Below, in pieces: positions 1-49,119 of a stretch of 64,000 nt of DNA (positions are counted from its first letter, which is position 1; every line of letters starts with the position of its first letter). Source of the DNA: Bacteroidales bacterium (lineage in GTDB: Bacteria; Bacteroidota; Bacteroidia; Bacteroidales; UBA932). The notes below the pieces were generated by a model that made no database searches, was not told the origin of the DNA, and saw nothing but the letters and a program-made list of their open reading frames with translations. The stretch lies in the NCBI GenBank assembly GCA_017398125.1, contig JAFQHE010000062.1, positions 1 to 64,000 of the forward strand, given 5' to 3'. The position numbers and the translations under genes are program-made.

Positions 1-1013
1 GTAGTAAGTTTGGCCTGCTTCATTATAAGGCCTATCTTGTTCACCTCATTCTCATTGTCGCCCCTCTTTGCAAGGTTGCAAAGAGCATAGTAATACCTTC
101 TGATTATCTCTTCCCGAGCCGCATCACAGCACACATCCTCATCACTCATACAGAAGCCCAGCATATTCACACCCATATCTGTAGGCGATTTGTAAGGACT
201 CTCACCATATATTGCCTCAAAGAGGGCATTCAGTACAGGAAATATCTCAATATCCCTGTTATAGTTCACAGCTATGTCGCCATAAGCCTCCAGATGGAAC
301 GGATCAATCATATTCACATCATTGAGATCTGCAGTTGCCGCCTCATATGCCATGTTCACAGGATGCTTGAGCGGAAGGTTCCATACCGGGAATGTCTCGA
401 ATTTTGCATATCCGGCCTTTATGTTCCTTTTGTGTTCATGATAAAGCTGGCTCAGACAAACAGCCATCTTTCCACTTCCGGGGCCCGGAGCTGTAACAAC
501 AACCAGCGGACGGGTTGTCTCAACATAGTCATTCTTGCCGAAACCCTCATCAGAATCAATGAGTGCCACATTGTTCGGATAACCCTCAATTGTATAATGA
601 TAATAGACCTTCATGCCGAGACGCTCAAGACGGGCTCTGTAGGCATCGGCACTCGGCTGGCCATTGTAGTGCGTTATAACCACACTGCTCACCAGCAGAC
701 CTACATTCTCAAACTCTGCGCTCAAACGGAGCACATCTTCATCGTATGTGATACCCAAATCGCCTCTGGTTTTGTTCTTCTCTATATCAATTGCACTAAT
801 CACCATTAGGATTTCCGCCTCATTTCTCAACTGCATAAGCATGTGCAGTTTGCTGTCGGGAAGAAAACCGGGCAAGACACGACTGGCGTGATTGTCATCA
901 AACAACTTACCTCCAAACTCAAGGTAAAGCTTGTCTCCGAACTGAGCTATTCTGTTTTTAATATGCTCAGACTGTATCCTGAGATATTTCTCGTTATCGA
1001 AACCTTTTTTCAT
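1..1013 (-). CDS. DUF1846 family protein, 5' part (runs off left edge)
   Basis: The first 337 codons are present, from an ATG at 1013. The translation begins MKKGFDNEKYLRIQSEHI and continues with family signatures such as LYLEFGGKLFDDNHASRVLPGF and VTAPGPGSGKMA. I recognise this as DUF1846 (UPF0371), a family of roughly 500 residues, so about a third is missing off the window. The PGPGSGK stretch resembles a phosphate-binding loop; the biochemical role is not established. It is transcribed divergently from the acyltransferase gene at 1117. A good -33/-7 promoter lies at 1022-1053, so close to the ATG that the mRNA may be nearly leaderless. The start choice is firm because it matches the family N-terminus. 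It contains one exact copy of the over-represented word TTCCCGACAG (853-862, minus). Confidence 0.85.
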   Translation of the reverse strand, partial: MKKGFDNEKYLRIQSEHIKNRIAQFGDKLYLEFGGKLFDDNHASRVLPGFLPDSKLHMLMQLRNEAEILMVISAIDIEKNKTRGDLGITYDEDVLRLSAEFENVGLLVSSVVITHYNGQPSADAYRARLERLGMKVYYHYTIEGYPNNVALIDSDEGFGKNDYVETTRPLVVVTAPGPGSGKMAVCLSQLYHEHKRNIKAGYAKFETFPVWNLPLKHPVNMAYEAATADLNDVNMIDPFHLEAYGDIAVNYNRDIEIFPVLNALFEAIYGESPYKSPTDMGVNMLGFCMSDEDVCCDAAREEIIRRYYYALCNLAKRGDNENEVNKIGLIMKQAKLT

Positions 1014-1021
1014 ACGGAATG

Positions 1022-1053
1022 CAAATATAGCCGTTCTGAAGCACCTTAACAAC
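1022..1053 (-). promoter_or_regulatory. Bacteroidota-type promoter for the DUF1846 gene
   Basis: Read on the minus strand: -33 GTTG at 1050-1053, a 20-nt spacer, then -7 TATATTTG at 1022-1029, matching TAnnTTTG. The box ends 8 nt before the ATG at 1013, leaving almost no 5' UTR. Confidence 0.6.
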
Positions 1054-1074
1054 AAAAAATGCAAAAAAATTACT

Positions 1075-1082
1075 TACATTTG
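1075..1082 (+). promoter_or_regulatory. -7 element for the DUF5009 gene
   Basis: TACATTTG matches the TAnnTTTG consensus 34 nt upstream of the ATG at 1117. No clear -33 TTG is visible at the expected distance, so this rests on the -7 box alone. Confidence 0.4.
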
Positions 1083-1116
1083 CCAATGTAAAATCTAATC
1101 TATAAAGGGCATTTTT

Positions 1117-2340: not shown

Positions 2341-2350
2341 TTCATTCTCA

Positions 2351-2376
2351 AAGGAGGGCACATCCCTCCTTTGTTG
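2351..2376 (+). terminator. Rho-independent terminator after the DUF5009 gene
   Basis: AAGGAGGG (2351-2358), a 5-nt loop, then CCCTCCTT (2364-2371), followed by TGTTGTT. The perfect 8-bp stem lies 10 nt past the stop. It also argues against the alternative TTG start at 2371 for the next gene. Confidence 0.75.
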
Positions 2377-2391
2377 TTCATTCTCTACAAG

Positions 2392-7103: not shown

Positions 7104-7154
7104 GCGTTTCAAAGTTCTGTAGCTATTTTTACAGAAACCTTGAAACGCTTTTTT
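7104..7154 (+). terminator. Long hairpin with T6, terminator of the ompP1-like gene abutting comM
   Basis: GCGTTTCAA (7104-7112) pairs with TTGAAACGC (7140-7148), and TTCTGTA (7115-7121) with TACAGAA (7130-7136). Six T residues follow (7149-7154). This is a 16-bp stem with one small internal loop. The T-tract ends directly at the comM ATG (7155). Confidence 0.8.
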
Positions 7155-8720
7155 ATGTTGTGTAAAGTCTTTTGTGCATGCTGCAGCGGTCTTGATGCAG
7201 TTATAATAACAATTGAGGCGGATGTTGACAAAGGCATCTCTTTCTATCTTGTAGGGCTTCCCGACAGTGCAGTAAAGGAGAGCCAGCAACGCATAAGTAC
7301 AGCCCTTAACCATTACGGGTTCAGGATCCCCGGCAAAAGGATTGTGATTAATATGGCCCCCGCCAACATTCGCAAGGAGGGCTCGGCATTTGACATTGCA
7401 ATAGCAATAGGAATACTCTGCGCCTCTGGACAAATTTCACAGGATACCATATCGCAGGAACGCCTCAACAGATTCCTTATAATGGGAGAGCTTGCACTCG
7501 ACGGCTCTCTGAGAAGTTTTTCGGGAGCATTGCCAATAGCCATAACTGCCGCACAAAACGGTTTCGAAGGATGCATTTTCCCAATTGAGGCAGCAATGGA
7601 GTGTTCGGAACTGGAAAGTATTCCCATCTATGCGGCATCAGATATAAGAGAAGTACTTGAGATCCTGAAGAGCGACGAAATTGGGAGCAGATACCTTATC
7701 TCCAATATTATTGGCGAGCATAGTAGAAAGGCCAGACCTCCTATAGAGCATGAATATGATTTTGCACAGGTCAAGGGGCAGCAGAGTGCCAGACTTGCAC
7801 TGGAAATAGCAGCGGCAGGTTATCACAATATAATTCTCTCTGGAGTCCCAGGTTGTGGTAAAACACTCATGGCCAAATGTCTGCCTTCAATAATGCCAGC
7901 CCTTACCTTTGAAAAATCAATAGAGACAAGTAAAATCTACTCAGTAAGCGGAATTTTACAGAATATGGGCGGTTTTATAAAGGAGGCTCCATTCAGGACA
8001 CCACATCACACCACTACAGTGACCGCTTTTGCCGGTGGAGGACACTCTTCACTTCCAGGAGAGATGTCACTGGCACACAACGGCATCCTGTTTATGGATG
8101 AATTCTGCGAATTTCCCCGCCATATCATTGAGGCCCTCAGACAACCTATGGAGGATGGCACAATTCAGATAAGCCGGGTAAAGAACAAGTATCTCTATCC
8201 GGCAGACTTCATGCTTGTAGCCACAATGAATCCATGCCCATGCGGCTTCTACGGAAGTACAGCCCACAACTGCACATGCTCAACAGCATCAATCATCAAA
8301 TATACCTCCCGCATATCAGGTCCCATCCTTGACAGGATTGATCTTCACGTGGCAGTAAGCTCCGTTGATCCGGCCAGCCTTATAAACATCGGCAACACCC
8401 CTGCTGCAGTCGAGAGCAGTTCAACAATTGCAGCACGCGTACTTAAAGCGCGCAATATCCAATACGAGCGATATAAAGGCGAGCGGTTCAATACAAACTC
8501 CCGGATCCCTGCTTCAAAACTCGAATACTACTGCAATATAGGCACAAAAGAGAGGGGATATATAAAGGGAGTTGTCACAAAACTGGGACTCTCCGCAAGA
8601 AGTTACAGTAAAATATTGAAAATATCACGTACAATAGCAGACTTGGATGGCAAGGATTTTATATCTTTGGAACATATTTCAAAGGCACTTCAATACAGGA
8701 GCTGCCTACCGCACTACTAA
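7155..8720 (+). CDS. comM: ComM/YifB-family AAA+ ATPase (Mg-chelatase-like)
   Basis: A 521-residue protein in the family's usual size range. The N-terminal Lon-like fold domain contains the signature YLVGLPDSAVKESQQRI. The AAA+ domain has Walker A GVPGCGKT (from residue 230) and Walker B GILFMDEF, and the C-terminal YifB domain ends the protein. ComM is a hexameric helicase that promotes branch migration during integration of transformed DNA; many non-competent bacteria also carry it. I start at the ATG at 7155 because MLCKVFCACCSGLDAV matches the family start; the TTG at 7140 lies inside the terminator stem. The start codon touches the T-tract of that terminator, so expression may need read-through or an unseen promoter. 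tsaE follows after 28 nt. One exact TTCCCGACAG lies at 7258. Confidence 0.9.
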   Translation: MLCKVFCACCSGLDAVIITIEADVDKGISFYLVGLPDSAVKESQQRISTALNHYGFRIPGKRIVINMAPANIRKEGSAFDIAIAIGILCASGQISQDTISQERLNRFLIMGELALDGSLRSFSGALPIAITAAQNGFEGCIFPIEAAMECSELESIPIYAASDIREVLEILKSDEIGSRYLISNIIGEHSRKARPPIEHEYDFAQVKGQQSARLALEIAAAGYHNIILSGVPGCGKTLMAKCLPSIMPALTFEKSIETSKIYSVSGILQNMGGFIKEAPFRTPHHTTTVTAFAGGGHSSLPGEMSLAHNGILFMDEFCEFPRHIIEALRQPMEDGTIQISRVKNKYLYPADFMLVATMNPCPCGFYGSTAHNCTCSTASIIKYTSRISGPILDRIDLHVAVSSVDPASLINIGNTPAAVESSSTIAARVLKARNIQYERYKGERFNTNSRIPASKLEYYCNIGTKERGYIKGVVTKLGLSARSYSKILKISRTIADLDGKDFISLEHISKALQYRSCLPHY

Positions 8721-8748
8721 CGGCACAAACAGATATTATTGGAGGAAA

Positions 8749-9183
8749 ATGGCACTTAAAAAGATATGTATCGGTTCTTTGGAGAGAATAGATGAAGCGG
8801 CACAGGAGTTCATAAGTTTCATCTCAAATTCAGACTTGCAAAGCAACATATTTGCATTTTACGGCAATATGGGAGCAGGCAAGACAACATTTATTACTGC
8901 ACTATGCAGGGTTCTTGGAGTTGAAGACACTGTAAACAGCCCGACTTTTACAATAGTGAATGAATACAGGGCTGCCAAAGGCTTTCCAATATATCACTTT
9001 GATTTCTACCGTATAAACAAGGAGAGTGAAGCGTATGATATTGGCATTGACGAATATTTTGGAGGAGATGGTCTCTGTTTCATTGAGTGGCCACAGAAGA
9101 TTTCACAAATCCTTCCTGATGATATAATCAATGTATCAATCAATGTTCTTCCCGACGGTTCACGTCAGATTGAAATTGGCTGA
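8749..9183 (+). CDS. tsaE: tRNA threonylcarbamoyladenosine biosynthesis ATPase TsaE
   Basis: A 144-residue P-loop protein. It has Walker A GNMGAGKT (residues 39-46), the switch-like SPTFTIVNEY, then YHFDFYR and FIEWPQ, all hallmarks of TsaE. TsaE works with TsaB, TsaD and TsaC to make t6A37 in tRNAs that read ANN codons. A longer frame extends upstream into comM, but the ATG at 8749 is preceded by GGAGGAAA, a rare good Shine-Dalgarno sequence here, and gives the normal family length. It is probably co-transcribed with comM. Repeat element R1 lies between its 3' end and the convergent NamZ gene. Confidence 0.92.
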   Translation: MALKKICIGSLERIDEAAQEFISFISNSDLQSNIFAFYGNMGAGKTTFITALCRVLGVEDTVNSPTFTIVNEYRAAKGFPIYHFDFYRINKESEAYDIGIDEYFGGDGLCFIEWPQKISQILPDDIINVSINVLPDGSRQIEIG

Positions 9184-9409: not shown

Positions 9410-10705
9410 CTACTCCTCCGGATAGAGCAGATAAGGTTTGCGCTGCTCCTTGAATTTTGCAACATCATCCTGCCACATTGCCTTGATCTCATCGGCAGAC
9501 TTACCCTCCTTGATCATCTTGCGCACATAATCACGACCTGTCTCCAGTTCAAACATCTTACGGAAGAAATGGTCATCAAGATTCAAATTATTGTAAGCGT
9601 CAATCACATACTCAAGGTTCACACCCTTTGCATTGATCTCCTCTATTGAAGGTTCATTCCTCAAATCCACTCCAAAGCACTCCTTATCCAATTGTGGCGG
9701 ATTCTTTGCCCCCGGAATGCTGCGAGGAATGAATGAGAAGTCATATCCTTTCATATTCGGATGGCCGTACATCTGGAAAGCCTTGTCGGTACCACGACCC
9801 AAACTGACCGGTGTTCCCTCAAAATAACAAGTTGACGGGTAGAGGTAGATTGAACGCATATCCGGCAAGTTCGGAGATGGCTTTATAGGCAATCTGTAGA
9901 GTTTTGCATGGGTATAGTTCTTGCATTTCACAACAGTAAGCTTGCACTCCATCTTATCTCTCAACCATCCCTCACCGTTTGCCATTGTAGCCAGCTCGCC
10001 AAGTGTCATACCATGCACAATCGGAATAGGAAGGCCGCCTACTCCAGATTTGTATTTCATATCAAGGATAGGGCCATCCACATAAAATCCGATCGGATTT
10101 GGACGATCCAATACAATGAACTCCTTGCCATCCTCTGCACAATTTGCCATCATATTGACCATTGTAACATAATATGTATAGAAACGCACACCCACATCCT
10201 GAAGATCAAATAGAAGCACATCAAATGAATCCATTGTCTCCTTTGAAGGTTTTTTCTCCTTTCCGTCATAGAGTGATCTGATTGGAACACCTGTCTTTTC
10301 GTCCACAGAGTTGCTTACATGCTCACCGGCATCTGCCTTTCCTCTGAATCCATGCTCAGGAGACATGATGCATGTAACGTTTATTCCCTTTGCTATCAAA
10401 GTATCAAGTATATGGACAGTAGGAGTGACCATACCTGTCTGGTTGGAGAGGATACATACCCTTTTCCCCTCCAACAAAGGAAGATACTCGTCAACACACT
10501 GTGCACCTGTAATAATATCTGTTGCATAATTGATCTTCTCCTCTCCAGGAAATGTAGCAATCTCATTTGTAGATGCAGCGGTATACTCAACTGTACCGTT
10601 CTTTGTTACATCAAGGGTACTCTTCACCTGACAGCGATTGTCAGAACAAGAAGCCAATGCAATAACAGCAGCTGCTATCAGAGTCAATAATGAGTGACTT
10701 TTCAT
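9410..10705 (-). CDS. DUF1343 protein, NamZ-like exo-beta-N-acetylmuramidase (lipoprotein)
   Basis: A 431-residue protein with a lipobox-type N-terminus (IALASC, Cys20), so it is probably membrane-anchored. The DUF1343 body is clear: CILSNQTGMVT, MSPEHGFRGKADAGE, VLLFDLQDVGVRFYTY, VLDRPNPIG and LPIPIVHGMT. Characterised NamZ proteins remove N-acetylmuramic acid from the non-reducing ends of peptidoglycan fragments. The E of SPEHGF and the D of DLQDVG are in the conserved active-site region. It is 33 nt downstream of waaA on the same strand, so the two probably form an operon. Other peptidoglycan-turnover genes occur in the window (22130, 40706, 41956). Confidence 0.88.
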   Translation of the reverse strand: MKSHSLLTLIAAAVIALASCSDNRCQVKSTLDVTKNGTVEYTAASTNEIATFPGEEKINYATDIITGAQCVDEYLPLLEGKRVCILSNQTGMVTPTVHILDTLIAKGINVTCIMSPEHGFRGKADAGEHVSNSVDEKTGVPIRSLYDGKEKKPSKETMDSFDVLLFDLQDVGVRFYTYYVTMVNMMANCAEDGKEFIVLDRPNPIGFYVDGPILDMKYKSGVGGLPIPIVHGMTLGELATMANGEGWLRDKMECKLTVVKCKNYTHAKLYRLPIKPSPNLPDMRSIYLYPSTCYFEGTPVSLGRGTDKAFQMYGHPNMKGYDFSFIPRSIPGAKNPPQLDKECFGVDLRNEPSIEEINAKGVNLEYVIDAYNNLNLDDHFFRKMFELETGRDYVRKMIKEGKSADEIKAMWQDDVAKFKEQRKPYLLYPEE

Positions 10706-10738: not shown

Positions 10739-12028
10739 CTAATTCTTTTCAATTACAGAAACCACCTTTGAAGTGGCACCGAGGTTCTGTTTTACATAAT
10801 TGGAACATATCTCTCCCCTCTTCTGGAGTTCTGCCGGCACATTTGAGAGCGTGCTGAAGAGAGAGTAGAACTCAGTTGCACTCTTTATTGATCTGGCTCC
10901 GCCAAGTTCCAACAGATCAACAGCCTCCTTGAACTTCCTATAATTCGGTCCAAAAACTACAGGAAGACCATAAGTTGCGGCCTCTAGAATATTGTGGATC
11001 CCCACTCCAAAGCCACCTCCAATATAGGCCACCTTTCCATATTTATAGATTGAAGACAATATGCCTATACAATCAATGATGAGCACATTGGACTGCTGCA
11101 GCTTTTTGATCAGACTGTCGGGAAGAGATGAGAGATCATTACCCGCCGGCTCACCATATTGGGCATTGATTTCAGAGAACTTTATAACCTGATACCCCTC
11201 AAAGCTCCTGGCCACCGACTCTATTCTCTCTTTTCCAATCTCGTGTGGTGCTATTACAAGTTTGGTACGAGGAAAATTCTTGAGCACCTTTGCAATTATC
11301 TCCTCATCCGGAGCCCATGAACTTCCGGCCACCACAGTAAAGTGATCCTTGGCAAAGAGTTCTATATAAGGGAATTGGGCACTGCTATGCGTAATCTGAT
11401 ATACCCTGTCAAAACGGGTATCCCCACAAATTATGACATTATCCTTGATGCCTATACCCTCAAGTAACGATGCCGACTGGTTGTCCTGCACAAACAGTGT
11501 GGTATAATTGCACAGCATCTTTCTGAAAAAACCTCCATACGATTTGAAAAAGGCTTGGGAAGGGCGAAATATAGCTGCTATTATGTATGTTTCAATGTTT
11601 CTGGCTTTCAATTCATTAAGATAATTATACCAGAATTCATACTTTATAAAGATAGCCTTGACAGGTTTGACACAATCAAGAAATGCCCTCGCATTTGAAG
11701 TTGTATCAATGGGCAGATAGAAGACCCAATCTGCCAGATTGTAGTTTTTTCTCAATTCGTAACCGCTTGGAGAAAAGAATGTAAGAAATATCCTATATTG
11801 GCTCCTCTCCCTCTTGTACCACTCTATGATTGGACGGGCCTGCTCAAATTCCCCAACAGACGAGCAATGTACCCAAATGATGGGAGAACCTGGTACGACA
11901 GCCTTTCTGATACTATCCAACAATCCCTTCTGCCCCCTATTGAAGCGTCTTGCTTTGGGATTGAACAGACCGGCAACACCTGTTATGAACAGATAAGCCC
12001 TTATTGCGAAATTATATAACAGTCTCAA
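10739..12028 (-). CDS. waaA: 3-deoxy-D-manno-octulosonic acid (Kdo) transferase WaaA
   Basis: A 429-residue GT30 glycosyltransferase with an N-terminal membrane anchor (~residues 5-22). The N-domain motif is IIWVHCSSVGEFEQARPII, whose glutamate is the family's catalytic base. The C-domain GT-B nucleotide site includes VAGSSWAPDEE, IAPHEIGKERIE and GGGFGVGIHNILEAATYGLPVVFGP. WaaA transfers Kdo from CMP-Kdo to lipid A at the inner face of the inner membrane. No ATG is available near the conserved N-terminus; the frame opens with TTG at 12028, which gives the normal length. It is followed by the NamZ gene and divergent from mlaE. One exact TTCCCGACAG is at 11115-11124 (minus). Confidence 0.9.
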   Translation of the reverse strand: MRLLYNFAIRAYLFITGVAGLFNPKARRFNRGQKGLLDSIRKAVVPGSPIIWVHCSSVGEFEQARPIIEWYKRERSQYRIFLTFFSPSGYELRKNYNLADWVFYLPIDTTSNARAFLDCVKPVKAIFIKYEFWYNYLNELKARNIETYIIAAIFRPSQAFFKSYGGFFRKMLCNYTTLFVQDNQSASLLEGIGIKDNVIICGDTRFDRVYQITHSSAQFPYIELFAKDHFTVVAGSSWAPDEEIIAKVLKNFPRTKLVIAPHEIGKERIESVARSFEGYQVIKFSEINAQYGEPAGNDLSSLPDSLIKKLQQSNVLIIDCIGILSSIYKYGKVAYIGGGFGVGIHNILEAATYGLPVVFGPNYRKFKEAVDLLELGGARSIKSATEFYSLFSTLSNVPAELQKRGEICSNYVKQNLGATSKVVSVIEKN

Positions 12029-13631: not shown

Positions 13632-13661
13632 CAGCAGGGCCATACCAATTGCCGGCTTCAG

Positions 13662-14993
13662 CTACTGTCTGCCGTTATTGAGGTGGAACCTCAAGCCAAT
13701 CTCAGCCTTAACCTGCAACGGCTGATCTGTTCTTATGCTTGCAGGCATTTCGGAATTGAAATAGTATACAAGATTGGGTTCTAAATATATACCCATCTGA
13801 GGGATGAATTTATACTCCATACCGAAACCGATGTTGCCCGAATACTGTATTCCACCCATATCGCCATCAAGTTCATATACTGCAGTATCATAGCTGCTTA
13901 GTTTGTATGATGCACTGATCCCCTTCTCAAAACTACCGCCAAGATTGGCATACAGGTAAAAGTTACTTTTATCTATAAGTCTGAAATATAGATTTATAGG
14001 AACGCCTACATAATGCAGATGCTGCTTTAATCTATAATATTTTTTATTTATCAGAGCCTCATATTTACTCTTAAGAAGTGTATAATTAACACCTACACCC
14101 ACCGAGAGAAGGGAGTTCAATCTCACTTGAGCCTGCAAACCAAAATTGATAGGCAGTGAATATTGTGTCTTTGAAATCTGCTCAACACTATGTACCCCAT
14201 TGGCCACCAGACTGCCCATTGACATATAATTCAAATACTGCGGAGATATTGCAGCACCACTGCTTGAGATAAAATTTGAAGCAACAGCCAAAGTATATGC
14301 CCTTCTGCCACTCTTATGCACCTCCTCCATATAGTCCCTTGCCACTGCTCTTTTGGCATGCCCGACTGCACTTTTGCCCTCATCCGCTACATTCTCCTGT
14401 CTTGCCATATATGCAGTACTATCCTCATCCTGCGCCTCAACTACATAGACCTTCTCCTCCTCAATTTTTTCTGCGGCCGGGCTCTCTGATCCAACTGCCG
14501 GTGCAGGCCTTACAGCTTCACCAACACTCTGCGCCGGAGATGACTTGTCAGCAACACTCTCCCCAACTACAGCCACCATCTTCCCGACAGATTCCACACA
14601 AATTCCGTCAATAATGCCATTTTCGTCATCAACAGCATTTTGCCCATCTGCGACATCACTCATACCGTCAGGTTCCGCATTATGAACAGTTTGAACACTA
14701 TATTCTGTTTTTGAAGCGAGCTGCGAAGATTCCTGCTCCAACACTGTCACTTCTCCCCTTTCAGGCCATAATAACAAGGCTATAAGCAATATGGCAGCAA
14801 TAGAGGCTCCATAATAGAGCACCTTGCGCCAGCTCCAATGAACTCCACCGCCCTTTTCGGCAGAGAGAGGAACTGCAGCCCCTGCTGAAGAGTCCAGACT
14901 CTTCTCAATGGCAGCCCACAAACCGGTATCCACCGGAGTCTCCAACCCGGCCAGCTTATCCCTGAAAATTTTATCTATATCGTTTTCTTTCAT
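13662..14993 (-). CDS. Anti-sigma-like / outer membrane beta-barrel fusion protein
   Basis: A 443-residue protein in three parts. Residues 1-55 are a cytoplasmic region beginning MKENDIDKIFRDKLAG, as in proteins paired with ECF sigma factors. A single membrane helix follows at ~58-76. Residues ~80-230 are an acidic, Val/Ala/Glu-rich, low-complexity linker that could span the periplasm. Residues ~230-443 are a PorT-like beta-barrel (OMP_b-brl type) with alternating aromatic strands, ending in GLRFHL. It starts 4 nt after the ECF sigma gene, so they are co-expressed. The likely role is to hold the sigma factor and release it on an envelope signal. The barrel call rests on composition and strand pattern; the anti-sigma role is inferred mainly from context. 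Confidence 0.65.
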   Translation of the reverse strand: MKENDIDKIFRDKLAGLETPVDTGLWAAIEKSLDSSAGAAVPLSAEKGGGVHWSWRKVLYYGASIAAILLIALLLWPERGEVTVLEQESSQLASKTEYSVQTVHNAEPDGMSDVADGQNAVDDENGIIDGICVESVGKMVAVVGESVADKSSPAQSVGEAVRPAPAVGSESPAAEKIEEEKVYVVEAQDEDSTAYMARQENVADEGKSAVGHAKRAVARDYMEEVHKSGRRAYTLAVASNFISSSGAAISPQYLNYMSMGSLVANGVHSVEQISKTQYSLPINFGLQAQVRLNSLLSVGVGVNYTLLKSKYEALINKKYYRLKQHLHYVGVPINLYFRLIDKSNFYLYANLGGSFEKGISASYKLSSYDTAVYELDGDMGGIQYSGNIGFGMEYKFIPQMGIYLEPNLVYYFNSEMPASIRTDQPLQVKAEIGLRFHLNNGRQ

Positions 14994-17032: not shown

Positions 17033-17043
17033 AAGTATTTGAC

Positions 17044-18786: not shown

Positions 18787-18804
18787 CCCTTTATTCCCGA
18801 CAGC

Positions 18805-20690: not shown

Positions 20691-20783
20691 ATATGATAAT
20701 TTTAAGAAATTCTTTTAAAAAACGCCTCTGTCGGGAGTAGCCACAAAGATAATATTTATGTTTCAATCTTCATATTTGTTTCT

Positions 20784-32893: not shown

Positions 32894-35401
32894 CTACTCT
32901 ACACTCTCACCTCTTTTCTTCGCATTACGTTCCATCCTCTTTTTGGTTTTCTCCAATTTCCGTTGCTCCTTCTTCAATCTTTTTTCCTCTTTCCTAAGTT
33001 TTTTCTGCTCCCTCTTCAACCGCTTCTGCTCCTCCTTTTCAAGTTTTCTCTTCATACGGGCCTCTTTGCGTGAAACCGCGGTCTCTTTGGTTGCATCAAA
33101 TGCCTTCTCCTCCTGTGAGAGTTCTTTCCCGACAGCCATCTCTTTTTCAACCTCCACCTTCTCTGAAGTTACAAGAGAATCTTTAATAGGTTTCACATCC
33201 AAAGAATCCTCCAATACAGGAATACCCATGTCCGAAGTATCCCTCTCCTGTTCCTTCTCTGCAAGCAACTTGGCCATCTCCCTGGCAGTTCTTATCGAAT
33301 CTGACAGTCGCTTGAAATCCATTATTCCGTCACGTTCGTCAGGAAAATAGATTGCACTATATGGATAGTTAGGAAATCTCTTTCTTTTAAATTTATCCCT
33401 TTTTGAATCCTTTATTTTGCGGTCCACCAACTCAAAACGGCTCTTCGGACGCTCTTCACCCCTCCAGTTGAAACCTTTGAGTCTCTGCTGGTCTACAGGC
33501 AGGTTATATACCGGATAAGCGTCATTTTTCAAAGATTCAATATATTTTATCCGCTGGATCTCCCTATCCTTAATTCTGGCAGAGATAATCTTGCCCTCTT
33601 TTTGGTTCATCATAGTTATAACACCATCTTCCTGCAGATAGAAAATCATTGAGGAACCACCAAGCGCATCATATCTGTAGAGATCATTATCCCTAAAATA
33701 GGCCACCATCTCAGTACCCTTTATCTGGTTGTAGTGGATAGTATCTTCCTGGGAAGCAATAAAAGCATTGGAGATAAGATTTGCCTTTGACAGGGCACCA
33801 TCCTTTATAACCAGCTGCATACTGTCGGAAGTAAACTGATGCTTGACCTCATTCCACATAACTGGATTAATGTACAGCCTTGCCATTGAGTCAAGATCTG
33901 TATACACAAGGGAATCACATAGAGCCTGAAGATCATTCCTGTAGACCTTAACATTGTTCCATGCATCAATAAATGTTACAGCAGTTGTATCCTGAGGCTC
34001 AACTACTATAGAATCGCGGACTGCCGTAAGGGAATCTGACATCAAAGAGAGCGAATCAGACATGACTGCTACGGAATCTGAATCTACAAACAGAGAATCC
34101 TGCATTACTGCAAGAGAGTCGGAATTTGCGAAGAGAGAATCCCTTCCAATGGCCAGTGAATCCTGCAGAGAGATTGACATATCCCGAACTGCTTGCAATG
34201 AATCCTGAACAAGTGAAGGCCTGTCCGACTCCTGTATCTGCAATGAATCCGATTCACTCTGAGGCGGTTGCTCTTCCTTTTGCACTCTCTTTGGCGTAAT
34301 GAAGTTACTTATAGTGGTATTATCTATCCTCTTCTTTGCACTCTCTGCCTCAATCTCTGTCAAAGGATCAAGGTTCGACAACTCAATTCTTGTCTTTGCC
34401 TGCTCAATGGCAGCTGAATCCACATCACAATACCTTACATGATAATATTTGAGAGTATCGGCCGCAAGGAACATTGTATCCCTGACACCATTCTCAACAG
34501 TATAAAGTGCAACAGCAGGCTTCTCAGTAAGAGTAATACAGAATGGATTTGGCTGATATAGCGCATGGTCAGCAAATGAATAAGCAGACTGTTTTGTGTC
34601 AAGAATCTGGATATTGTTTACCAGTTCAGCCACTCCGGTATTCCTGAAATAGGAAAGGGTATCGGCCCACAACTCCTGATCTTTTGTAAGTATGTAGCCA
34701 TCTTTGTAGAAACGGAATACATTTGCACCTCTATCATACTCTCCATCATTGGCAAACAACATATTATCCTCCTGCCACGCCGTTGTATTCCTGCCGAAAT
34801 ATGCCTTATTTTCTGCTGTGCTGTATTCAAGTTTGTCGGCCTTCACAAATATGGAATCAGTGAACATCTGAACATTCTCTTCAAATGAAAAGAGCTTGTC
34901 ATATGCAAAGTACCACCCTTCACGACTCTCAATGATGTTTCCACTGGCACCCTTCATTACTCCGCCATTGAAGAAGTTTCCTATACTGTCGCGAGTGTTG
35001 TAATCGAGAAAATTTGTCCGCAGCACATTACCATCCTTATCGTATAGCTCAACAAGATTACCTCTGACCTTTGCCATATCTTCGTCAACCACATAGTCAA
35101 TCTTGTCACTGACAAGGAACGTATTCTCCTGAATGACCTGGACATTGCCTATAGCCTTGATTACATTCTCGTTTACATTCCACAAGGCGGTATCGCACAA
35201 CAGATATGTATTGTTATGGAAGAACCGGGCATTACCGACAACTTTACGGAATGAAATGCCGTCAATCTCCTGAATCTGGGCAGAACTGGCTTCAATCAGA
35301 CGCACAAGAGAGTCCCGCTCCTCTCTCTTCTGCTGTGAAAACAGTGTTACAGAAAGGAGTTGGAAAACAAACAGGAACAACAACGGCAACCTTCCTCGCA
35401 T
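32894..35401 (-). CDS. OstA/LptA-like protein with DS-rich repeats and basic tail
   Basis: An 835-residue exported protein with a signal peptide to ~residue 22. Residues ~30-340 contain repeated OstA/LptA beta-jellyroll units (for example DTALWNVNENVIKAIGNVQVIQENTFLVSDKIDYVV), which carry LPS between the membranes. Residues ~385-470 are a low-complexity tract with DSL repeats (QDSLAIGRDSLFANSDSLAV). Residues ~500-690 are a further conserved region. The last ~95 residues are a highly charged Lys/Glu/Arg helix (KKLRKEEKRLKKEQRK). It begins 1 nt after surA, tying it to outer membrane biogenesis. I cannot see a full LptD barrel. The plus-strand word TTCCCGACAG is at 33126, antisense to the gene. 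Confidence 0.72.
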   Translation of the reverse strand: MRGRLPLLFLFVFQLLSVTLFSQQKREERDSLVRLIEASSAQIQEIDGISFRKVVGNARFFHNNTYLLCDTALWNVNENVIKAIGNVQVIQENTFLVSDKIDYVVDEDMAKVRGNLVELYDKDGNVLRTNFLDYNTRDSIGNFFNGGVMKGASGNIIESREGWYFAYDKLFSFEENVQMFTDSIFVKADKLEYSTAENKAYFGRNTTAWQEDNMLFANDGEYDRGANVFRFYKDGYILTKDQELWADTLSYFRNTGVAELVNNIQILDTKQSAYSFADHALYQPNPFCITLTEKPAVALYTVENGVRDTMFLAADTLKYYHVRYCDVDSAAIEQAKTRIELSNLDPLTEIEAESAKKRIDNTTISNFITPKRVQKEEQPPQSESDSLQIQESDRPSLVQDSLQAVRDMSISLQDSLAIGRDSLFANSDSLAVMQDSLFVDSDSVAVMSDSLSLMSDSLTAVRDSIVVEPQDTTAVTFIDAWNNVKVYRNDLQALCDSLVYTDLDSMARLYINPVMWNEVKHQFTSDSMQLVIKDGALSKANLISNAFIASQEDTIHYNQIKGTEMVAYFRDNDLYRYDALGGSSMIFYLQEDGVITMMNQKEGKIISARIKDREIQRIKYIESLKNDAYPVYNLPVDQQRLKGFNWRGEERPKSRFELVDRKIKDSKRDKFKRKRFPNYPYSAIYFPDERDGIMDFKRLSDSIRTAREMAKLLAEKEQERDTSDMGIPVLEDSLDVKPIKDSLVTSEKVEVEKEMAVGKELSQEEKAFDATKETAVSRKEARMKRKLEKEEQKRLKREQKKLRKEEKRLKKEQRKLEKTKKRMERNAKKRGESVE

Positions 35402-39171: not shown

Positions 39172-40098
39172 TCAATCTTTATACAATCTTCCCTGACAAG
39201 TATTCCTATCCTCCAATCTCTTCTCCAACAATCTTATCAGTTCAGTATTTCTGATCAGACCCCATGGCGAGCCATTCACGAACCTTGGCGGAACCTCTCC
39301 CGCAAACCTCTCTATATAAAGGTCTTTGCGTAACAATTCAAGGAAGTCCACAAAAAAATCCATATAACCGTCAAGGGTAAATTCAACAAAATCTTCCCGA
39401 CAGTTTTCATACTCCCTCTCCATTGCAGTTCCCTTGATTATCTGAAGCTGATGAAACTTCAAGGTATTCAAAGGCAGCGTATTGATAATCCCAGCCATTC
39501 CCATCATATCAGTAATACTCTCCCCGGGCAGGCCGAAGATGAAATGGGCTCCCTGGAATAGCCCCCTCTGCGCAGTAGCCTCAACTGCCCTACGGGCTGT
39601 CTCAAAATCATGACCTCTGTTTATACGTTTAAGGGTACGATCATAGCAGCTCTCTATGCCATACTCCACAATAACAACCTTCTCCTTTGCAAGGGAGGCC
39701 AGATAATCAAGCTTAAACTCATCGATGCAATCGGGTCTCGTTCCGACCACTATTCCCCTGACCGAAGGATGCGACAAGGCCTCGGAATAGAGCCTCTTCA
39801 GCTGGTCAAGCGGAGCATACGTATTTGAATAGGACTGGAAATATGCAAGATAATCCGTTGTATTCCTGTACCGCCCCCTGTGAAACTCCATCCCCTCCTC
39901 AAGTTGCTGAAGGATAGATTTGTCGGGAGTACTGTAATTGGGATGGAAAGCCGCATTGTTGCAATATGTACATCCGCCCACACCCACACGGCCATCCCTG
40001 TTGGGACAGGTAAAGCCGGCATCAATTACTATTTTCTGAAGCCGGCATCCATACTTCTCCCTGAAATAACCCGTGAATGCGTTATAACGCTTTTCCAT
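39172..40098 (-). CDS. TIGR01212-family radical SAM protein (YhcC-like)
   Basis: A 308-residue protein. The [4Fe-4S] cysteines occur as FTCPNRDGRVGVGGCTYCNN, the unusual spaced motif of the TIGR01212/YhcC family, followed by YFQSYSNTYAPLDQLKRLY and GTRPDCIDE. E. coli YhcC is of unknown function. Its C-terminal sequence includes FHQLQIIKGTAM and ends near the guaB promoter region. It lies 14 nt downstream of the yhcH-like gene on the same strand. An exact TTCCCGACAG copy is at 39394-39403, antisense. Confidence 0.88.
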   Translation of the reverse strand: MEKRYNAFTGYFREKYGCRLQKIVIDAGFTCPNRDGRVGVGGCTYCNNAAFHPNYSTPDKSILQQLEEGMEFHRGRYRNTTDYLAYFQSYSNTYAPLDQLKRLYSEALSHPSVRGIVVGTRPDCIDEFKLDYLASLAKEKVVIVEYGIESCYDRTLKRINRGHDFETARRAVEATAQRGLFQGAHFIFGLPGESITDMMGMAGIINTLPLNTLKFHQLQIIKGTAMEREYENCREDFVEFTLDGYMDFFVDFLELLRKDLYIERFAGEVPPRFVNGSPWGLIRNTELIRLLEKRLEDRNTCQGRLYKD

Positions 40099-40705: not shown

Positions 40706-41929
40706 ATGAAAAAAATACTACTACTTACATCTATGGCAGCAGCTGTATTGGCAGGATGCTGCAACAATCAGCAGGATGCTACCATTGAGAAGTTCAATGA
40801 TATCAAAAAAGGAGTAAAAGCAGTACATGCTCCCGACAGCCGTTCAAAGACATTTGATGTAAACCTGGAGAAAGAGGGGGATAAATATATTTTGCGTGGT
40901 GTAACAACCCAGCAGCAGGCAAAAGATTCATTGGCGCATGCATTGAAGGCTGCAAACATCCAGTTTGAGGATAGTCTTTTCATGTTACCATGTGCAAAAC
41001 TCGGAGAGAAGACCTATGCTGTGTCAACCCAGTCTGTAATCAACTTCCGTACAGGCGGCAAATATAGTGCGGAGTCCGCAACTCAAGTAATGATGGGCAC
41101 ACCGCTAAGACTTCTTGAGAAGAATGACAATGGCTGGACACGCGCAATTACTCCAGAAGGCTACATTGCATGGGTTACCAATGCCAGCTATCAGGAGATG
41201 ACAAAAGAGGAGCTTGATGCATACAAGGCAAAAGACAAAGTGATTGTAACTACAAAATATACTACCATTTATGAGGACAACAGCGACAAGAGCCAGATGG
41301 TAAGTGATGCTGTATGGGGCAATATCCTTATTGATTTGGGTAACGCAGGCATCTACTGGAGAAAAGTTGCAATTGCCGACGGAAGAACAGGCTACATTCC
41401 TCAGAGAGATGTTACAAACTTCGAAAAATGGCTTGACAGCCGCAACCCTACCGCCGAGAACATTATCGCCACAGCAAAACAGTTTATCGGTGTTCCATAT
41501 ATGTGGGGTGGCACATCAATCAAGGCTGTTGACTGCAGTGGATTTACAAAATCAACATATTTCCTAAATGGTCTTGTTCTTGCAAGAGATGCTTCGCAGC
41601 AGTGCCACACAGGTGACAATGTAGACATCTCAAAATATGTAAATGACAGCACATATACAGTTGAGGCCCTTTCAAACCTCAAAAAGGGAGACCTTATCTT
41701 CTTCGGTTCAAAAGCTACTCCAGAGAAGAAAGAGAGAGTTACCCACGTTGGTATTTATATTGAGAACGGTATCTTCATCCACTCAGCCGGCAAAGTAAGG
41801 ATCAACTCACTCATCCCGTCAGATGACAATTACTACAGCGGTTCAAAGAGACTTCTCAGAGCGTGCAGAATCATCGGTAACCAGGATATGGGTAAGGAGA
41901 TATACTCAATTGAAAAACTATACAAGTAA
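40706..41929 (+). CDS. NlpC/P60 cell-wall peptidase with SH3 domains (lipoprotein)
   Basis: A 407-residue lipoprotein with lipobox AVLAGCC. Two SH3b-like domains lie at ~95-250, and an NlpC/P60 domain at ~255-385 has C277 (AVDCSGF), H347 (THVGIY) and H359 (IFIHSAG) as the catalytic Cys-His-His. Related enzymes cut the gamma-D-Glu-mDAP bond of murein peptides and release L-Ala-D-Glu. The next gene, a dipeptide epimerase 26 nt downstream, would act on that product, which strongly supports this specificity. The longer frame from 40667 starts inside the -7 box and is rejected. Confidence 0.9.
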   Translation: MKKILLLTSMAAAVLAGCCNNQQDATIEKFNDIKKGVKAVHAPDSRSKTFDVNLEKEGDKYILRGVTTQQQAKDSLAHALKAANIQFEDSLFMLPCAKLGEKTYAVSTQSVINFRTGGKYSAESATQVMMGTPLRLLEKNDNGWTRAITPEGYIAWVTNASYQEMTKEELDAYKAKDKVIVTTKYTTIYEDNSDKSQMVSDAVWGNILIDLGNAGIYWRKVAIADGRTGYIPQRDVTNFEKWLDSRNPTAENIIATAKQFIGVPYMWGGTSIKAVDCSGFTKSTYFLNGLVLARDASQQCHTGDNVDISKYVNDSTYTVEALSNLKKGDLIFFGSKATPEKKERVTHVGIYIENGIFIHSAGKVRINSLIPSDDNYYSGSKRLLRACRIIGNQDMGKEIYSIEKLYK

Positions 41930-43490: not shown

Positions 43491-44117
43491 ATGGGATTAC
43501 TGGGTAAAGAGATAAAGCATCCACTGCTTGGAATTGTTCACTACACAAAAAGGAGAGGCAGCAAGTGCATACGTGTATCTGTAACACGCAATGGCAGAGT
43601 CCGTGTAACCCTTCCACTCTTCACATCATTTGCCACAGCCATTGGATTTGTAGAAAAGAACTCGACTAAAATAATGGCAACTCTTGAGAGAATCACCAGA
43701 CAGGAGGCATCAAGGATCTCGATCAGCGACATTGAAACCGGCGGACTTGAGCAGATACGCCAGAGGGCGCGGAGCACTCTTCCAGAGAGATTAAAGGAGC
43801 TGTCGGGAAGAATGAATGAGAGATTTATAATAACGGATAGCGCAGGCAGATGTATAGAAAAGCCATTCACATACAAAAGGGTAGCCATAAAAAATAACCG
43901 AAGCAACTGGGGAAGCTGTTCAACTGCAGGCAATATCAATCTTAACATGCACCTTATAAGCCTTCCCGACAAATTGAGAGATTTTGTAATCCTGCACGAG
44001 TTGTGCCACCTTGTCCACCCCAACCACGGGAAAGAGTTCCACAACCTGCTTGACAAAGCATGTGGCGGAATGGAAAAAGAGTATTCAAAAGAGCTCCGCA
44101 AGTACCGCCTGAACTGA
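43491..44117 (+). CDS. YgjP/SprT-like zinc metalloprotease (M48-related, DUF45)
   Basis: A 208-residue protein with the zinc motif HELCH (H169, E170, H173) and the downstream LVHPNHGKEF that supplies the third ligand. It also has the family's N-terminal KRRGSKCIRVSVTRNGRVRVTLP and NNRSNWGSCSTAGNINLN. YgjP-like proteins are small cytoplasmic proteins of uncertain substrate. It is flanked by terminators and probably has its own transcript. It carries one exact TTCCCGACAG (43800-43809, minus) and one near copy (43963-43972). Confidence 0.88.
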   Translation: MGLLGKEIKHPLLGIVHYTKRRGSKCIRVSVTRNGRVRVTLPLFTSFATAIGFVEKNSTKIMATLERITRQEASRISISDIETGGLEQIRQRARSTLPERLKELSGRMNERFIITDSAGRCIEKPFTYKRVAIKNNRSNWGSCSTAGNINLNMHLISLPDKLRDFVILHELCHLVHPNHGKEFHNLLDKACGGMEKEYSKELRKYRLN

Positions 44118-47006: not shown

Positions 47007-47023
47007 TCTCCTCTGACACAATA

Positions 47024-47118
47024 GAACGGCTGACGCAAAAGTCACCCATGAATAGCAAATCCCTGTTAGAGCATATTCTGACAGGGATTTTCTGTTTAAT
47101 AGAAAAGCTTTAAAGCTC
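47024..47118 (+). repeat. Dispersed structured repeat, copy R2
   Basis: The inner stem is AATCCCTGTTAGA (47058-47070), a 6-nt loop and TCTGACAGGGATT (47077-47089), 13 pairs with one G-T. The 5' flank GGCTGACGCAAAAG...ATGAATAGCAAA matches R1. The 3' outer arm is shortened, so this copy looks decayed. It lies 18 nt after the pnp stop. A 21-codon frame starts at the conserved ATG. Confidence 0.65.
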
Positions 47119-47138
47119 CATCCATACCTTAGTGTAAT

Positions 47139-47175
47139 AAAAAAGGGCGGCCTGAAACTGGAGCCACCCCTTTAT
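47139..47175. terminator. Bidirectional terminator between pnp and glyA
   Basis: AAAGGG (47142-47147) pairs with CCCTTT (47168-47173), and GGC (47149-47151) with GCC (47163-47165). There is a small internal loop. The minus strand continues into T6, so it mainly serves glyA. Confidence 0.65.
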
Positions 47176-47202
47176 TGTAATTTATCTCTGGCGCACTGTT
47201 TT

Positions 47203-48480
47203 CTACCATGCGTTCAAAGGACGTCCGCTCATCAACTGACGTGCCGATGCTTTGACCTCCTCCAACACTTTCGGATCATCAATATTGCTTAGAACCTTGT
47301 CTACAAGGTCAACAATTGTTACCATATCCTTCTCAACCAAACCTCTTGATGTAACAGCAGGGCTTCCTACGCGGATTCCTGATGTCTGGAATGGTGAACG
47401 GCTGTCAAAAGGAACCATATTTTTGTTTACTGTAATATCTGCCTGAACAAGTGTCTTCTCAGCAACTTTACCGGTAAGGTCAGGGAATTTTGTTCTCAAG
47501 TCAATCAACATAACGTGGTTGTCAGTACCTCCCGAAACAACTTTGTACCCCTTTGCAATGAATGCCTCTGCCATAGCTGCTGCATTCTTCTTAACCTGTA
47601 TCTGATACTCCTTGAACTCAGGTTGAAGAGCCTCAAAGAAAGAGACAGCCTTGGCTGCAATACAATGCTCAAGCGGACCACCTTGAATACCAGGGAAAAC
47701 GCTTGAATTCAACACTGCCGACATCTTCTTGATTTCTCCCTTAGGAGTCTTGATTCCAAATGGATTGTCAAAATCCTTGCCCATCAAAATGATACCGCCA
47801 CGAGGACCTCTCAATGTCTTGTGGGTTGTAGATGTTACAATATGGGCAAATTTGACAGGATTGCTCAACAGACCGGCCGCAATAAGACCTGCAGGATGTG
47901 CCATATCCACCCACAAAATAGCCCCCACTTTATCTGCAATTTCACGCATTCTGGCCCAATCCCACTCTCTTGAGTATGCAGAGGCACCTCCAATGATCAA
48001 TTTAGGTTTGTGCTCAAGTGCCTGTTTCTCCATGTCATCATAATCAATAATACCATCCTCATTCAAGTGATATGCAACGGCATTATAGAGGATTCCGGAC
48101 ATATTTACAGGAGAACCATGAGTAAGGTGTCCGCCATGTGCAAGGTCAAGACCCATGAAAGTGTCACCCGGTTTAATACAAGCCATCATTACTGCCATGT
48201 TTGCCTGAGCTCCAGAGTGAGGTTGCACATTTGCATACTCTGCCTCAAAGAGCTGGCAAAGGCGGTCAATTGCCAATTGCTCAATCTGGTCTACCACTTC
48301 GCAACCGCCATAGTATCTTGCTCCAGGATAACCCTCAGCATACTTGTTTGTACAAACTGAGCCAAGTGCCTCCAACACCTGATTAGACACAAAGTTTTCA
48401 GATGCAATCAACTCAATGCCGTGAAGCTGTCTGTTTTCCTCTTTTTTGATTAGTTCAGAAATTTGAAGATCTTGTTTCAT
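47203..48480 (-). CDS. glyA: Serine hydroxymethyltransferase
   Basis: A 425-residue, PLP-dependent SHMT. The PLP lysine lies in [14 protein letters not shown]. Substrate-site motifs include [39 protein letters not shown] and [14 protein letters not shown]. It interconverts serine and glycine with tetrahydrofolate and supplies one-carbon units. It is monocistronic, divergent from the SpoU gene. A -7 box TAAATTTG on the minus strand (48520-48527) lies 39 nt before the ATG. Confidence 0.97.
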
Positions 48481-48519
48481 ATTGTTTTTATTTTATCTAC
48501 GTGTAAAGAATATTTCTCA

Positions 48520-48527
48520 CAAATTTA
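48520..48527 (-). promoter_or_regulatory. -7 element for glyA
   Basis: TAAATTTG on the minus strand matches TAnnTTTG. A GTTG lies at 48551-48554, 23 nt away, slightly far for a -33 element. The opposing TATTTTTG (48540-48547, plus) may serve the SpoU gene. Confidence 0.4.
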
Positions 48528-48582
48528 TGATTTTAATTTTATTTTTGCATCAACATTCGGTAAAGTTATAATTTTTTTTTCA

Positions 48583-49119
48583 ATGTACAGAAAATTAAGG
48601 AATGATGAACTTGGACGTATATCTGCCCAAGAGTTCAAGGAGGCCACAAAACTCAGCATAACAGTTGTTTTGGATAATGTGAGGAGCCAGCACAATATAG
48701 GTTCCGCATTCCGCACTGCTGATTCATTTTTTATTGAAAGGATAATTCTGTGCGGAATTTGCGCCACTCCACCAACTGCAGAGATACACAAATCTGCTCT
48801 TGGAGCCGAGTTTTCTGTAGAGTGGGAGTATTATAAGGAGACAATGGAGGCTGTCGGGAAACTTAAAGAAGAGGGTTATACAATTATAAGCATTGAACAG
48901 GCCGAAGACTCCATTTCTCTGGAAAAATTCAATCCTCTTCCCGACAGGAAATATGCCCTCATCTTCGGCAATGAGGTAAAGGGAGTACAGCAGGAGGTAG
49001 TAAGCGCAAGTGATGCGGTACTGGAGATACCACAATTTGGCACAAAACATTCACTCAACATTTCAGTCTCTGCCGGAGTTGTACTTTGGGAGTGCTGCAA
49101 GAAACTAAAACTTGATTAA
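48583..49119 (+). CDS. SpoU-family RNA 2'-O-methyltransferase (TrmH-like)
   Basis: A 178-residue SPOUT methyltransferase with motif 1 VLDNVRSQHNIGSAFRTADSF, motif 2 YALIFGNEVKGVQQEV and motif 3 EIPQFGTKHSLNISVSAGVVLWE, which form the trefoil knot SAM site. It methylates a ribose in tRNA or rRNA; the target cannot be told from these motifs. The frame is open to 48463, but the ATG at 48583 starts the conserved region and has a -7 box 35 nt upstream. It carries two exact TTCCCGACAG copies in opposite orientation (48851-48860 minus, 48938-48947 plus), the densest pair in the window. Confidence 0.9.
   Translation: MYRKLRNDELGRISAQEFKEATKLSITVVLDNVRSQHNIGSAFRTADSFFIERIILCGICATPPTAEIHKSALGAEFSVEWEYYKETMEAVGKLKEEGYTIISIEQAEDSISLEKFNPLPDRKYALIFGNEVKGVQQEVVSASDAVLEIPQFGTKHSLNISVSAGVVLWECCKKLKLD

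Follow-up and report, generated by a model that had tools for sequence, protein, structure and literature searches.

The word TTCCCGACAG (word A, core TCCCGACA) is vastly more frequent than a codon-aware expectation allows, and one clade of the same genus carries a different word, ATCGCNGAG (dialect B), in its place. By analogy with Neisseria, word A is probably one of several dialects (dialect A) of a watermark that resembles an uptake sequence and runs through the whole genome. An initial annotation of the 64-kb stretch of DNA analysed here (the window) had proposed a selected word with a role in uptake or recombination. This is still the best reading, the uptake being what we infer, and an uptake-type word is favoured over a Chi or FtsK word because strand skew is missing, because the dialects go by species and because the same-strand repulsion described below is not found in E. 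coli Chi.

Word A is the commonest 10-mer of the window, with ten exact copies (Table 1), every one at the position and on the strand given by the initial annotation; the next non-overlapping 10-mers reach five copies. Seven of the ten extend to CTTCCCGACAG, as had also been stated. Exact and one-mismatch matches together number 18, against a mean of 2.57 and a largest value of 8 in 100 dinucleotide shuffles. Eight of these are one-mismatch forms: the seven noted earlier all exist, two of them one base away from where they had been placed (really 6225 and 24185), and the eighth, at 56278, had been overlooked and is probably a chance match. The claim that protein coding cannot explain the word is borne out by the nine exact copies inside open reading frames (ORFs), where synonymous-codon shuffles (n=2000) yield 0.04 copies on average and never more than 2. 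It is equally correct that copies lie both sense and antisense in the ORFs of the window, that one copy is intergenic, and that exact copies are absent from the SusC-type ORFs (29495-32692 and 49514-52630), the SusD ORF (28008-29477), pnp, guaB and rnfC, the genes identified by Pfam that this comparison covers.

Table 1. Copies of word A and two genes of interest in the window
Feature	Position	Strand	Context
Exact word A	853..862	-	sense in ORF 3-1064 (DUF1846); intact in G007
Exact word A	7258..7267	+	sense in comM (7140-8720); intact in G007, flanks changed
Exact word A	11115..11124	-	sense in ORF 10739-12028 (Kdo transferase family); intact in G007
Exact word A	14581..14590	+	antisense in ORF 13662-14993 (outer-membrane barrel domain)
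Exact word A	18794..18803	+	between ORFs 16879-18786 and 18805-20037; missing at aligned place in G007
Exact word A	33126..33135	+	antisense in ORF 32894-35401 (OstA-like); missing at aligned place in G007
Exact word A	39394..39403	+	antisense in ORF 39172-40098 (radical SAM)
Exact word A	43800..43809	-	antisense in ORF 43491-44117 (YgjP-like)
Exact word A	48851..48860	-	antisense in ORF 48463-49119 (SpoU methylase); 87 bp from 48938 copy, opposite orientation
Exact word A	48938..48947	+	sense in ORF 48463-49119 (SpoU methylase)
One mismatch, TTCCCGACAA	6225..6234	-	core kept; core intact in G007
One mismatch, TTCCCGACGG	9149..9158	+	
One mismatch, CTCCCGACAG	20728..20737	-	core kept; core missing at aligned place in G007
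One mismatch, CTCCCGACAG	22253..22262	-	core kept; core intact in G007
One mismatch, TTCCCGACGG	24185..24194	+	
One mismatch, CTCCCGACAG	40830..40839	+	core kept
One mismatch, TTCCCGACAA	43963..43972	+	core kept
One mismatch, TTACCGACAG	56278..56287	+	core broken
comM (YifB-type AAA ATPase)	7140..8720	+	Pfam matches Mg_chelatase, ChlI, Mg_chelatase_C
NamZ/DUF1343 protein	9410..10705	-	PF07075; Pfam family shared with RA0C_RS09020 of Riemerella anatipestifer

The genome to which the window belongs (G000) holds 183 copies of word A (100 forward, 83 reverse), compared with six (3 + 3) of the reversed word. Under synonymous shuffling, the core is expected 5.0 times and observed 88 times in G000; the observed and expected counts are 112 vs 11.7 in G024 and 37 vs 1.6 in G019, and for dialect B four genomes give 37-48 observed vs 4.8-7.5. 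The over-representation therefore survives both the genome-wide count and the codon-aware expectation that the initial annotation had called for. Across the 39 genomes of the genus, word A stands at 78-276 copies in 11 and at 0-10 copies in 25, and the most that any of 392 further genomes from the order contains is 40; a Saprospiraceae motif resembling dialect A proved to be a GAAA-loop hairpin. Dialect B, counted in 31 of the 39 genomes, reaches 359-1058 copies in eight of them (592-1058 in the seven richest), all eight falling among the 25 with 0-10 copies of word A, and no genome counted for both words is rich in both. G014, outside the 31-genome sample, is enriched for dialect B in the stretches examined. 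In a single-gene tree (covering 30 of 38 genomes that matched comM; midpoint root for drawing only), dialect B forms one clade nested among bearers of word A.

Word A has internal free positions, and a variant a few positions apart from it, CTCGACGG, is found in G020. In G019, of which 74 kb were read, its degenerate form has a density of about 500 per Mb, and counts near 1000 are reached solely by dialect B and by degenerate forms of A. In G024 a T-rich tract occupies positions -3 to -8 of the word, somewhat like the flanks seen in Haemophilus uptake sequences. Between G000 and G007, six of nine aligned core sites are kept, as opposed to 29% of comparable 8-mers (P 0.02).

Neither word has a strand preference. 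Along the single-contig genome G024, all 80 forward sites of word A are evenly placed (the position test rests on the forward sites; 20 of the 86 reverse sites are listed). The per-stretch strand share for dialect B and G024 is.568 where.616 is expected at random, which is no excess, and a 3:1 replication-strand skew is rejected at P 0.005. Most sites sit inside genes and some outside, with sense and antisense copies in near-equal numbers (47/45 in G000, 17/15 in G019 and 105/98 in five dialect B genomes). Reading frames are used unevenly, 40 of the 47 sense copies in G000 sharing one frame, so amino-acid context restricts the placement of words.

Neighbouring copies on the same strand are thinned below about 750 bp (45 pairs vs 103 expected), whereas those on opposite strands are not (122 vs 103), bearing in mind that the 750-bp cut was set after the bins were seen and that same-strand pairs are not fully independent. 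Control words measured alike show no such repulsion. The effect comes mainly from G024, whose stretches were picked partly for dense exact word (this biases densities and leaves strand and pair statistics unbiased), and from dialect B. The window's genome follows it as a trend only (same-strand 7 vs 11.8 expected, opposite 13 vs 11.8), and the orientation of neighbours does not alternate there (43:40). Copies that lie close together mostly face opposite ways; inverted pairs within 100 bp number 3 in G000 vs 3.1 expected (Poisson), and an excess of such pairs as at Neisseria terminators was not found. From the same-strand spacing it would seem that the word works on a single strand, a single copy on each strand sufficing for every ~0.75 kb.

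The competence genes comEC, dprA and comM are each present in 38 of the 39 genomes of the genus, and equally so in genomes with neither word (G033, G038, G002 and G025). Against the comM loci of named genomes the identity is 43-50%, and in a tree the genus fell within none of the named groups. They therefore cannot discriminate, and the presence of comM in the window, which had been offered as support for an uptake or recombination role, carries no weight. The type IV pilus platform (PF00482) was found in 0 of the 39 genomes and in 13 of 14 controls; a type IV pilus receptor was thus rejected, and the reader of the word would be something other than a known kind of type IV pilin. A locus of DUF5689, nuclease and outer-membrane-barrel genes, taken up as a lead from PMC8459023, was rejected likewise, as its distribution does not track dialect: DUF5689 occurs in 21 of the 39 genomes, including G000, G007 and the wordless G033, G038 and G002, and is absent from nine other dialect-A genomes.

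If word A is an uptake-type signal, a surface or periplasmic DNA-binding protein would prefer word-bearing DNA, and the DNA that natural transformation (ComEC, DprA, ComM) brings in would more often than not bear the word. Recombination might then convert genomic sites towards the word through point changes, and a shift in the specificity of the reader would rewrite the genome into a new dialect. A more particular scheme, put forward tentatively and with more doubt than confidence, is a pilus-independent uptake specificity with dialects, in which strand-specific reading selects the strand of a sub-kilobase fragment that enters. A separate copy would then be needed on each strand, and a further one on the same strand within ~750 bp would be redundant. 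Were this true, no uptake-sequence receptor other than a pilin would have been known before this reader. A word system with dialects in Bacteroidota that have no pilus platform would mean that sequence-selective DNA uptake evolved with a different reader. It would also predict DNA exchange partners among species and provide a handle for transforming uncultured Bacteroidota by adding the right word to DNA. Other members of the phylum, Pontibacter among them, may have words of this sort. With bearers of either dialect and wordless genomes in one genus, receptor-word co-evolution is directly testable, and the same-strand repulsion, which bears quantitatively on the mechanism, can be sought in Neisseria and Haemophilus.

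Among other explanations, the strongest is a Chi-like recombination hotspot for an AddAB/RecBCD-type enzyme, with a recognised word that changed within the genus, although it is unlikely. Like E. coli Chi (GCTGGTGG), the word is over-represented, non-palindromic and scattered genome-wide; Chi words vary among species (PMC3630211), and a one-directional enzyme would also render same-orientation copies redundant. However, E. coli Chi is strand-skewed (share.787), and its same-orientation copies do not repel one another (11 vs 8.5 expected, from 89 sites and with limited power), and the genus words are the opposite in both respects, with uniform forward sites in G024 and the 3:1 skew rejected. 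The word is also long and has an A/T-tract flank in G024. The dispersal, informative flanks and protein-site-like motif would suit a site bound by a protein that organises or segregates the chromosome (KOPS, matS, parS or nucleoid-occlusion type), a reading that is nevertheless improbable. Such classes need an orientation or position bias, and the 80 forward sites in G024 have neither the polarity towards the terminus of a KOPS/FtsK-orienting word nor the macrodomain clustering of matS, parS or nucleoid-occlusion sites, on which grounds both were rejected; moreover, the majority of sites are intragenic and the dialect changes wholesale inside one genus.

The lineage-wise distribution of the dialects would also fit a self-mark used in defence or modification, such as methylation-type self-recognition, instead of an uptake signal, and long non-palindromic marks are possible. 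We give this as little credence as the chromosome-organising site, restriction-type sites being usually neutral or avoided and not so enriched. That the word is a codon, peptide or repeat-element artefact has next to no probability. One frame of dialect B does read Ile-Ala-Glu, and frame use is uneven, but synonymous-shuffle nulls are 6- to >200-fold too low in word-rich genomes, by which a codon or peptide artefact was rejected. Sense and antisense copies are balanced; beyond the core, copies have no more than a few flanking bases in common, and gains and losses of word A between G000 and G007 are local substitutions, all of which speaks against an artefact too.

Uptake words have been placed in Neisseriaceae and Pasteurellaceae, families that take up DNA via type IV pili. 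The word resembles the uptake signal sequences (USS) of Pasteurellaceae in its short core, its A/T-rich flank (in G024), its strand balance and its scatter. It is an unrelated word, however, and uptake in Pasteurellaceae is pilus-based, with a minor pilin predicted as the receptor in PMC12616744 (on USS see also PMC7811141), whereas no pilus platform was found here. Within Bacteroidota, a limited search of open-access full texts found no report of an uptake word under Bacteroidetes, Bacteroidota or Bacteroidales, and among the literature matches listed for the literal word A none concerns bacterial uptake by its title or the start of its abstract. Riemerella anatipestifer and R. columbina are Bacteroidota with ComEC, DprA and ComM as well. 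RA0C_RS09020 is reported essential for transformation in the former, a transposon screen of which gave eight essential transformation genes, none of them named as a pilus gene; transformation machinery with no recognised pilus part does occur in the phylum (PMC8459023). R. columbina prefers its own DNA, and a raw k-mer search for an uptake word in the study reporting this was unsuccessful, with A-rich words only in its Table 3 (PMC7965970). Unlike the present genus, Riemerella has no known uptake word. The DNA uptake sequences (DUS) of Neisseriaceae, read in dialects by the minor pilin ComP (PMC3630211; PMC3868556), number 943 to nearly 6000 copies per Neisseria genome (PMC3630211). Word A differs from them in being sparser (in exact copies) and in its internal free positions, in having no clear excess of close inverted pairs and in belonging to another phylum and to a genus in which no type IV pilus platform was found; the same-strand repulsion of the genus words over about 750 bp may be a further difference. 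As in Neisseriaceae, the word is the top over-represented non-palindromic word, lies on both strands inside and outside genes, and comes in several dialects that follow phylogeny, some of which, such as word A and the G020 variant, are only a few positions apart.

All ten exact copies of the over-represented 10-mer (dialect A) that the initial annotation had claimed for the window are present where it placed them, and by k-mer count this is the commonest 10-mer there; of the one-mismatch forms, eight exist rather than the seven claimed, and two of the positions were off by one. Nine exact copies lie within ORFs (4 sense, 5 antisense) of the window, which carries SusC/SusD genes, and the contention that coding does not explain them is borne out by shuffling synonymous codons in the window's genes: over 2000 rounds, genic copies averaged 0.04 and never exceeded 2, vs the 9 observed. 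The excess extends to the window's own genome (G000; 2.22 Mb in 86 contigs, the window being bases 1-64000 of contig 59), with 100 + 83 copies vs 3 + 3 for the reversed word, a control of the same letters read backwards. The motif proper is the core TCCCGACA plus graded flanks: over 327 kb of G000, the first base and the last two admit substitutions, which are seldom seen at the positions in between.

The dialect A word characterises some species of the genus. Whole-genome searches of 39 genus genomes (G-numbers) found 78-276 copies in 11 (G000, G006, G007, G008, G010, G012, G018, G019, G024, G026 and G037), intermediate counts in G020 (39), G033 (18) and G038 (13), and 0-10 in the remaining 25, vs 0-11 of the reversed word. 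Outside the genus, the maximum over 392 other genomes of the order was 40 copies (G454, 3.9 Mb), and 80 named comM loci of other genomes (1.455 Mb) held 3 copies vs 2 of the reversed word. Dialect A is not uniform: in G024, TCNCGANAG is accepted, closely preceded by a T-rich tract and followed by a T, and G019 prefers TNNTCCCGANA.

Nine genomes poor in dialect A were searched for words of their own (60-180 kb sampled from each), and from five of them the same enriched word, ATCGCNGAG (dialect B), emerged, at 42, 53, 54 and 46 per 100 kb in G014, G011, G029 and G027 and 22 per 60 kb in G030, vs order-3 Markov expectations of 0.8-2.5 in those samples. Ile-Ala-Glu coding accounts for some of its background; in four dialect-B genomes, 37-48 copies were seen vs 4.8-7.5 by synonymous shuffle. 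Whole-genome counts in a family sample of 249 genomes (31 from the genus) gave 359-1058 copies in eight genus genomes (G003, G009, G011, G023, G027, G029, G030, G031), 101-170 in six more and 7-59 in the other 17, among which all ten sampled dialect-A genomes fall; among genomes in which both words were counted, abundance of one never goes with abundance of the other. Counts of 100-240 may be ordinary, since a maximum of 241 (G248, control 22) was reached in the family's other 24 genera. A weak third word, CTCGACGG, two substitutions from CCCGACAG, occurs in G020 (17 vs 2.2 by synonymous shuffle), no comparable own word appeared in the sampled stretches of G033 and G025, and in G038 it is mainly clustered arrays that supply the top words.

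Several other repeats were seen in these stretches. The G038 arrays consist of GTTCAGATGC-like words in alternating orientation at regular spacings of ~24, 87 and 100 bp. A palindromic companion, ATCGCGAT, occupies 35 places in 460 kb of dialect-B stretches (G014, G011, G029, G027, G030), where the control palindrome CGATATCG has 11, and is found 0 times in 353 kb of G000, 4 in 180 kb of G024 and 2 in 180 kb of G033; three exact dyads CTGTCGCGACAG are present in G024. Among repeats of greater length, with no relation to the word, are GCGCCTTCTGTC (14 copies in 100 kb of G027, stretches L176-L180) and a family of ~20 bases with 7 copies in G014 (L161-L165).

In a ComM tree of 30 genus genomes, drawn with a midpoint root that does not establish the true one, dialect A occupies several separate branches (G000/G007; G037; G018+G012+G019+G008+G006+G010; G024/G026), dialect B forms one clade, sister to G024/G026, and the wordless G033, G002 and G038 group beside G000/G007/G020. 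The simplest reading of this one gene would be an ancestral dialect A that gave way to B once and was lost in other lineages. Between G000 and G007 (84% identical DNA), 9 of 17 window core sites could be aligned within 40 kb of G007, the other 8 having no aligned homolog there; six of the nine core sites are intact vs 29% of comparable 8-mers (binomial P 0.02), and core-site losses and gains are local substitutions.

The dialect words are strand-balanced. G024 is a single contig, and its 80 forward sites are spread uniformly around the circle (Rayleigh P 0.25), with gaps such as a Poisson process would give; a replichore-wise skew of 3:1 is rejected (P 0.005). Of its 86 reverse sites, 20 are among the matches listed. 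Across 20-kb stretches from dialect-B genomes and from G024, the strand with more sites holds a share of.568; random placement would give.616 and a 3:1 skew.755. Sense and antisense sites in genes are about equal (G000 47/45, G019 17/15, dialect B 105/98; in G024, core 24/35 and its looser, degenerate form 59/60; 4/11 in the small G037 set). Frame use in G000 is uneven, with one frame holding 40 of 47 sense sites, for which the synonymous-shuffle null allows. Sites not wholly in ORFs make up 26% of core sites in G024 (7.5% of sampled sequence being non-ORF), 13% vs 6.6% in G000 and 3% vs 4.9% in G019, and the sampled dialect-B stretches show no such excess.

For word pairs separated by 12-750 bp, with the upper cut set after the bins had been seen, the expectation was taken from placing words uniformly along each stretch. 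With all sets pooled, 45 same-orientation pairs were observed vs 103 expected, and 122 opposite-orientation pairs (62 convergent, 60 divergent) vs 103; beyond 750 bp both match expectation. The same:opposite ratios are 26:50 in dialect B, 8:45 in G024, 3:8 in G019, 7:13 in G000 and 1:6 in G018+G037+G007. For G000 alone the repulsion is only a trend (7 same-orientation pairs vs 11.8 expected), and its neighbouring words are 43 opposite and 40 same. Control 7-mers of similar abundance have same-orientation shares of.60 in dialect-B stretches and.56 in those of G024, none of 82 such words falling to the.34 of dialect B and none of 19 to the.15 of G024. E. coli Chi (89 sites in nine 50-kb stretches) has a strong strand skew and lacks the repulsion, with 11 same-orientation pairs vs 8.5 expected. 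From the repulsion and these controls, the word therefore seems to act on each strand separately, over less than ~1 kb. Direct-repeat instability could be proposed as the cause of the same-strand repulsion, and is unlikely given words of only 9 bases. Under per-strand action, further same-strand copies would be redundant, a single copy on each strand sufficing.

ComEC (PF03772), DprA (PF02481) and ComM are each found in 38 of 39 genus genomes, wordless ones included, the DprA of G000 being visible only as two pieces on two contigs. ComEC is compact (367 aa in G000, 445 aa in G024) and in both has only the channel (Competence) domain by Pfam, with no nuclease-like C-terminal domain. PF00482, the inner-membrane platform of type IV pili and type II secretion, was detected in 0 of 39 genus genomes and in 13 of 14 controls. 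In another member of the Bacteroidota, Riemerella anatipestifer, transformation is reported to use ComEC, DprA, ComF and RecA together with function-unassigned proteins, namely DUF5689, a presumed barrel with CarboxypepD_reg, a helix-hairpin-helix protein and DUF1343 (PMC8459023); by Pfam, the NamZ ORF of the window is a member of this DUF1343 family. R. columbina favours its own DNA, and the only top k-mers that its authors give are A-rich (PMC7965970). A surface locus of G000 looks like a putative DNA-processing uptake locus: one protein combines BACON, DUF5689 and a DNA/RNA non-specific endonuclease, and it has a CarboxypepD_reg outer-membrane barrel and a separate BACON protein with weak OB-fold-like matches. 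A differently built DUF5689-type locus occurs in six dialect-B or weak-B genomes. As the reader, the presumed recognising protein, the DUF5689/nuclease/barrel locus was rejected, its presence failing to track dialect.

Coordinates of features on the sampled DNA stretches (L-numbers)
Feature	Coordinates	Remarks
Compact ComEC	L223:1129-2232	Pfam
Compact ComEC	L226:1012-2349	Pfam
Surface locus, G000 contig 58	L277:9279-16818	adjoins metK; metK and lipoprotein signals identified visually
DUF5689-type locus, dialect-B or weak-B example	L282:1724-12533	
G038 arrays	L211 ~7613-8901 and 13620-14301	
G038 array	L214 ~464-1171	

Dense dispersed words were also seen elsewhere in Bacteroidota. Stretches of ~21.5 kb carry 35 copies of CTATACCT vs 2.2 expected (L078, Pontibacter sp. 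HSC-36F09) and 25 of TTATACTT vs ~3 (L068, uncultured Pontibacter); both words contain TATACYT, Rufibacter loci L057 and L061 hold 0-2 copies, and the Pontibacter words are possibly further uptake-like dialects. In a Saprospiraceae MAG (L099, 21.2 kb), CCGANAGG has 17 copies, 15 as CCGAAAGG. By eye, the bases on either side are complementary in 16 of the 17 copies; the element is a dispersed hairpin whose loop is of the GAAA type, and it was rejected as an uptake-like word.

Searches of open-access full texts yielded no description of an uptake word in Bacteroidota. The definition of the uptake sequences of Neisseriaceae (DUS) and Pasteurellaceae (USS) includes a pilus, a part wanting in the genus (no PF00482 in the 39 genomes), and because of this, and because uptake is only putative, the word is not filed under systems of the ComP type, in which a minor pilin reads the DUS. 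By its anatomy it works like a DUS or USS, with a putative role in uptake, and that anatomy, as read from sequence, is a better match to uptake-sequence dialects than to any other known class considered.
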